From contig VEQL01000032.1 of the NCBI GenBank assembly GCA_018883245.1, forward strand, positions 1-32,708: a stretch of 32,708 bases of DNA, given 5' to 3'. The DNA comes from Chthoniobacterales bacterium (GTDB lineage Bacteria; Verrucomicrobiota; Verrucomicrobiia; Chthoniobacterales; JACTMZ01). The first letter of the stretch is position 1. Each line of letters opens with the position of its first letter. Positions 1 to 597 of the stretch are shown here, one piece after another. Below the pieces are notes generated by a model that was not told where the DNA came from, did no database searches, and worked only from the letters and a program-made list of their open reading frames with translations. The translations under genes were made by a program, and so were the position numbers.

Positions 1-424
<424 letters not shown>

Positions 425-445
425 TTAAGGTTAAAATACCCTTGT

Positions 446-463
446 AAGCACGTCCCGTGCCAG
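446..463 (-). promoter_or_regulatory. Sigma-54 (-24/-12) promoter of dnaK
   Basis: Read on the minus strand the sequence is CTGGCACGGGACGTGCTT. It matches the sigma-54 consensus TGGCACG-N4-TTGC at all but one defined base, with the invariant GG (461-460) and GC (449-448) separated by exactly ten bases. Transcription would start near 436, leaving a leader of about 27 bases before the dnaK ATG. No enhancer-binding protein or rpoN gene is in the window. The match is seen directly; its use in vivo is inference. Confidence 0.75.
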
Positions 464-468
464 AGGGT

Positions 469-482
469 GTGTGACAAGTGAC
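469..482 (-). promoter_or_regulatory. Proximal copy of the GTGTGACA-N2-TGAC repeat next to the dnaK promoter
   Basis: GTGTGACA at 469-476 is followed by AG and TGAC at 479-482 (plus-strand reading). This is the same bipartite element found twice further upstream, but with a two-base instead of a three-base gap. It lies about five bases beyond the -24 element, a position that could reduce or modulate sigma-54 polymerase binding. Function is inferred. Confidence 0.45.
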
Positions 483-541
483 ATGTTGCTTGTGAAAAGG
501 GACTTACAAAAATAGCCTCCGCCAAACCGAGGCCCTCCCAA

Positions 542-597
542 GTGTGACATGATGACCCAAATGGCGCGCTCTATGGCGCAAAGTGTGACAGGGTGAC
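542..597 (-). promoter_or_regulatory. Two distal GTGTGACA-N3-TGAC repeats, putative enhancer sites for dnaK
   Basis: Copy A is GTGTGACA (542-549), TGA, TGAC (553-556). Copy B is GTGTGACA (583-590), GGG, TGAC (594-597). They are in the same orientation with a period of 41 bases, about four helical turns. They lie about 105 to 160 bases upstream of the predicted sigma-54 start, the usual place for enhancer-binding-protein sites. A short ATGGCGC direct repeat (561-567, 573-579) lies between them. Repeats are seen; the role is inferred. Confidence 0.5.

Follow-up and report, generated by a model that had tools for sequence, protein, structure and literature searches.

The analysed DNA (here called the window; 32,708 nucleotides) is the start of contig C32 in the 2.9-Mb genome of a member of the Chthoniobacterales (Verrucomicrobiota), labelled G000. 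It opens with a truncated dnaK gene, and the features of interest lie in the noncoding region ahead of it:

2–409, minus strand: dnaK, first 136 codons; the ATG is at 409, the gene runs leftwards, and the contig ends within it
436–437, minus strand: predicted transcription start
447–462, minus strand: sigma-54 -24/-12 element TGGCACGGGACGTGCT, a 16-base box assigned from sequence and conservation
469–482, plus strand: proximal GTGTGACAAGTGAC copy, in relatives either a GTCACNN heptad array or absent
543–559, no strand assigned: predicted proximal enhancer dyad TGGGTCATCATGTCACA (on the dnaK strand), centred at about -114
584–600, no strand assigned: predicted distal enhancer dyad CGCGTCACCCTGTCACA (on the dnaK strand), centred at about -155

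Farther upstream, on the same strand as dnaK, positions 625 to 1770 encode a protein with GYF_2 and bacterial PH domains and a weak SHOCT match.

The near-perfect -24/-12 element that a first-pass annotation had placed in front of dnaK was confirmed in the sequence as TGGCACGGGACGTGC (TGGCACG-N4-GTGC), at 462-448 on the minus strand. Exactly 10 bases separate the GG from the GC, and the surrounding bases provide the TGGCAC/TGC context of a sigma-54 promoter. The end of the 16-base box lies 37 nt from the dnaK ATG. Transcription from sigma-54 promoters usually starts about 11 to 12 nt downstream of the -12 GC, and the start was predicted on this basis. The gene for sigma-54, rpoN, the absence of which from this genome would have counted against the proposal, is present, as it is in all of the 24 genomes tested, two of them 0.9 Mb in size. 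The classical heat-shock regulators were searched for as well. HrcA was not found in this genome, and the window contains no CIRCE inverted repeat; no RpoH was detected above the curated cutoff in this genome, in which two sub-threshold hits of the sigma-70 family reached at most 169 bits versus 323. No sigma-70-like promoter was found between positions 400 and 700 of the window.

Upstream of the promoter, the string GTGTGACA-N-TGAC is repeated on the plus strand at 469-482, 542-556, and 583-597, with the upper two copies 41 bp apart. The string is rare: the genome as a whole (2.9 Mb) contains four copies, three of them upstream of dnaK and one within 23S rRNA. All three same-direction copies and the 41-base period noted in the first reading are thus present, but the distal two are better described as imperfect 17-bp palindromes of the form TGNGNCA-N3-TGNCNCA. 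The proximal copy, which had been tentatively viewed as an inhibitory site, has a 2-bp rather than a 3-bp spacing, is absent in three relatives, and lacks a conserved dyad structure, so that an inhibitory role for this copy is less well supported. In this part of the region, between the enhancers and the promoter (window positions 465-505 and loci L114 to L116), several congeners have an array of up to five GTCACNN heptads, which is degenerate or absent in other congeners.

Taken by itself, the window provides no statistical support for either element. The -24/-12 pattern is expected 0.55 times per window, so a single match is not beyond chance, and the dyad with at most one mismatch is expected 1.2 times, which is not significant either. 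The strong sigma-54 pattern TGGCAC-N6-TGC is not enriched genome-wide (23 matches versus 42 for the reversed control); apart from the site at dnaK, none of these has an upstream dyad scoring at least 9/10, and the majority fall inside reading frames. The case therefore rests on conservation.

Conservation was assessed in the dnaK upstream regions of the genus, in named Verrucomicrobiota and related loci, and in a second set from the order, with a promoter score threshold of 13.5 of 15.5. A -24/-12 element precedes dnaK in approximately 92% of 76 nonredundant sequences from the order and the wider Verrucomicrobiota. The threshold was reached by 78% of the upstream regions in the genus, 93% in the order, for which a search for the element had originally been suggested, and 92% in other Verrucomicrobiota, compared with 0 to 2% of the control windows drawn from these loci. 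Among the 19 outgroup loci, a set that wrongly took in one member of the PVC group (“Candidatus Tritonobacter,” L110), none reached it. Within the genus, dnaK was located in 10 of 11 genomes, and all 10 upstream regions carry the element at essentially one position, although the automatic scan chose another box in one of them (L119). In the alignment of these ten sequences (57% mean identity), most invariant columns belong to one of the two dyads, to the promoter, or to the start codon. The promoter element is also found ahead of dnaK in Kiritimatiellae, Lentisphaeria, Hydrogenedentes, and Sumerlaeota; the -24 boxes are weaker in some lineages, for example, CGGAATATGGATTGCT in family f9. In “Ca. 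Tritonobacter,” a top-scoring box and two dyads lie about 430 bp upstream, ahead of a 131-codon open reading frame (ORF) adjoining dnaK. This ORF (“Ca. Tritonobacter lacicola,” L110:2380-3000), situated directly before dnaK and carrying the box and both dyads, is receiver-like, which suggests a regulator-dnaK operon. With rpoN in the genome and the -24/-12 bases retained in close relatives and phylum-wide, the proposed RpoN control of dnaK is supported, and the sigma-54 step at this promoter appears highly probable on comparative grounds.

The dyad was also recovered de novo. Unconstrained expectation-maximization yielded the motif G.G.CA...TGtCaCA together with its complement, that is, an imperfect palindrome; a palindrome-constrained search was dropped in favor of the unconstrained one, having produced AT-rich artifacts at most widths. 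At a cutoff of at least 8 of 10 fixed positions, the dyad is present in 100% of the upstream regions in the genus, 96% in the order, and 88% in other Verrucomicrobiota, compared with 4 to 7% of control windows and with 14 to 33% when a scrambled motif was scored in those upstream regions. The figure for the order comes from 27 sequences outside the motif finding, whereas otherwise some of the sequences scored had also served to derive the consensus. Each of six congeners has one exact dyad at dnaK and between zero and two elsewhere in the genome; those of the latter that were inspected appear to lie mostly in coding sequence, and one of them lies over the start of clpP.

The centers of the dyads mostly fall between -90 and -165 relative to the predicted start, and the gaps between them cluster at 32 to 34, 40 to 44, and 51 to 54 bp. 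A Rayleigh test for a period of 10.5 gave significant clustering (P ∼ 1e-6 to 1e-10), with the qualification that the sequences are related and hence not independent. Because, in addition, the best-fitting periods are 11.25 bp for sites and 9.25 bp for gaps rather than exactly 10.5, phasing lends only approximate support. Dyad sites about 80 to 200 bp upstream that are conserved and approximately phased are what is expected of sigma-54 enhancers (upstream activating sequences), and the enhancer-like character attributed to the two upstream repeats is supported by their conservation, their rough helical phasing, and their recurrence at the gene of the candidate activator described below. In one genome, G002 (L120, about 1950-2230), a divergently transcribed gene also faces the dnaK dyads. 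It has a separate -24/-12 box (TGGCATAAAACCTGCT), and its product, judged by eye, we take to be ATP-grasp-like; the enhancers may be shared between the two genes.

A sigma-54 promoter requires consideration of the enhancer-binding proteins (EBPs), of which this genome encodes only two strong candidates, along with two further weak domain matches in large ORFs:

G000:C45:9819-11144: EBP2, an AtoC-like response regulator (receiver Asp intact, GAFTGA loop present, helix-turn-helix [HTH] of the Fis type)
L002:1012-2439 (G000:C7): EBP1, an NtrC-like EBP linked to uppS, with Glu at the acceptor position of the receiver

EBP2 has the full architecture of the NtrC family, namely, a receiver with the phospho-acceptor Asp, an AAA+ domain with GAFTGA, and a Fis-type HTH. 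It is AtoC-like only and not an AtoC equivalog, given its score of 474.9 bits versus an NCBIfam cutoff of 714. The protein is near-universal in the order, where it forms one clade that broadly follows the families; in four small genomes (G017, G027, G035, and G049), no EBP besides it was detected. With regard to the search for an EBP with a matching site, proposed at the outset, the dnaK dyad is found at at least 8/10 positions in 21 of 51 EBP2 genes, 21 to 47 nt before the receiver motif (start codon), including all six EBP2 genes read in this genus, compared with 4.6% of random 160-nt windows. In about half of the EBP2 genes, no dyad is present at the start; some of these genes follow the kinase gene in a kinase-EBP2 operon. 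One fragmented metagenome-assembled genome (G061) has the promoter and the dyads, yet no EBP was found in it. Being the sole EBP in four reduced relatives and having, in many lineages, the palindrome at its own start codon, EBP2 is the best candidate for the activator of the dnaK promoter, and this assignment, made from sequence, is considered likely.

The strongest competing explanation retains the sigma-54 dependence of the promoter but has EBP1 as the activator, or EBP1 and EBP2 sharing the sites. EBP1 is the other EBP of this genome and is 62 to 85% identical across most of the order, and an 8/10 dyad is located near its start in two congeners. However, 13 of 57 genomes of the order have no EBP1, and the dnaK upstream regions of these mostly keep the boxes and dyads: in the 12 EBP1-less genomes that were read, sigma-54-like boxes are present, most with dyads, some of them weaker. 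Furthermore, none of the EBP1 start regions reaches a 9/10 dyad, versus 20% of those of EBP2. Control by EBP1, alone or shared, is therefore unlikely. In each of the 11 EBP1 orthologues read, Glu takes the place of Asp at the receiver phospho-acceptor, and this protein is possibly a constitutive or pseudo-receiver activator.

Alternatively, the dyads could be operators of an unrelated repressor or activator acting on a sigma-70 promoter, with the -24/-12 element being of minor importance. Such dyads are also typical of other dimeric regulators, and the genome does encode sigma-70-family factors, but the dyads and the -24/-12 element are conserved together over the phylum, at the enhancer-typical distance of 90 to 165 bp; the lack of a sigma-70-like promoter in the 400-700 interval and the failure to find HrcA in the genome likewise count against this explanation, which is given little credence. 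Finally, a chance resemblance combined with ordinary noncoding conservation and no sigma-54 control, although compatible with the expectations for the single window, is hardly credible given the elements' presence in 92 to 93% of relatives versus 1 to 2% of controls and none of the outgroup set, and given the concentration of invariant bases in the elements.

Activation by EBP2 from the two dyads is thus preferred, and a probable partner for EBP2 was identified:

L273:760-1968 (G000:C19): PAS histidine kinase, behind the oligopeptidase F gene

The N terminus and PAS domain of this kinase give one strong match in each of the 25 genomes tested (25/25), and in several families the kinase gene adjoins EBP2. 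In the four kinase loci parsed, no strong dyad, with or without a promoter, was found ahead of the gene. Judging from gene content and neighborhood, the pairing of the kinase with EBP2 is somewhat favored. In this genome, the kinase gene overlaps the end of the oligopeptidase F (peptidase M3) gene (L273:760-3443), which might connect the signal of the kinase to peptide turnover.

The proposed mechanism, to which an overall probability of about 0.8 is assigned, is as follows. Sigma-54 RNA polymerase would transcribe dnaK from the -24/-12 promoter. Activation would come from the two imperfect palindromes, enhancers that lie some 115 and 155 bp upstream and share approximately one face of the helix. 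EBP2, the most likely activator, would act on the sigma-54 holoenzyme via DNA looping, probably after phosphorylation by the conserved PAS histidine kinase, and would probably tune its own gene via the same palindrome at its start codon. Actual binding to the enhancers, the connection of EBP2 with dnaK, its pairing with the kinase, and the inducing signal are inferences, and protein-folding or heat stress as this signal is a guess.

The arrangement is phylum-wide, with a parallel in Chlamydia, and is not peculiar to this organism. A broader proposition, at somewhat under even odds, is that a dedicated, autoregulated kinase-EBP2-sigma-54 pathway with dnaK as its principal target has taken the place of sigma-32/HrcA control throughout Verrucomicrobiota, a change that perhaps dates back to the ancestor of the PVC group, and that it has been kept even in 0.9-Mb genomes in which EBP2 is the sole sigma-54 activator. 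If true, bacteria would have a third major route for controlling their chaperones. The analysis also suggests a reason why genomes as small as 0.9 Mb retain rpoN and one activator. The control of the core chaperone in Verrucomicrobiota seems to be little studied: a full-text literature search for sigma-54 control of dnaK in this phylum yielded nothing direct, and no description of the phylum-wide extent, the enhancer motif, or the candidate activator circuit was found in the literature searched. A specific promoter, enhancer, activator, and kinase are now proposed.

Among known systems, control by sigma-32 (RpoH) and by HrcA/CIRCE has the same target gene, dnaK, but relies on elements that the searches here did not reveal, namely, HrcA in the genome, the CIRCE repeat in the window, and an RpoH scoring above the cutoff. 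The classical NtrC, ZraR, AtoC, and GlrR units share with the present one the -24/-12 element, paired palindromes about 100 to 160 bp upstream, a receiver-AAA-Fis activator, and a PAS kinase; here, in contrast, the target is the core chaperone gene dnaK, the dyad is TGNGNCA-N3-TGNCNCA, and a candidate autoregulatory site lies at the start codon of the activator. A 2025 survey (PLoS One, PMC12316311) predicted an enrichment of sigma-54 promoters on chaperone genes in Planctomycetota and Bacteroidota. The regulons described there similarly have predicted -24/-12 elements ahead of the DnaK, DnaJ, GrpE, and GroES genes, but in the passages considered the enrichment concerns just these two phyla and not Verrucomicrobiota, and neither an enhancer motif nor an activator is given for the chaperone cluster. 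The closest parallel is the hrcA-grpE-dnaK operon of Chlamydia, which has tandem sigma-66/sigma-54 promoters in an organism with an AtoS-AtoC pair (PMC8762339), so that sigma-54 at dnaK is not new in itself. Both systems belong to the PVC group and combine a sigma-54 promoter on dnaK or its operon with an AtoC-like EBP and a sensor kinase. In Chlamydia, HrcA control is added, whereas here HrcA was not found, and dnaK has its own promoter and two upstream dyads. The chlamydial CtcC is not known to have a DNA-binding domain. The analysis connects the sigma-54 promoter of the chlamydial dnaK operon with a possibly older, PVC-wide circuit.
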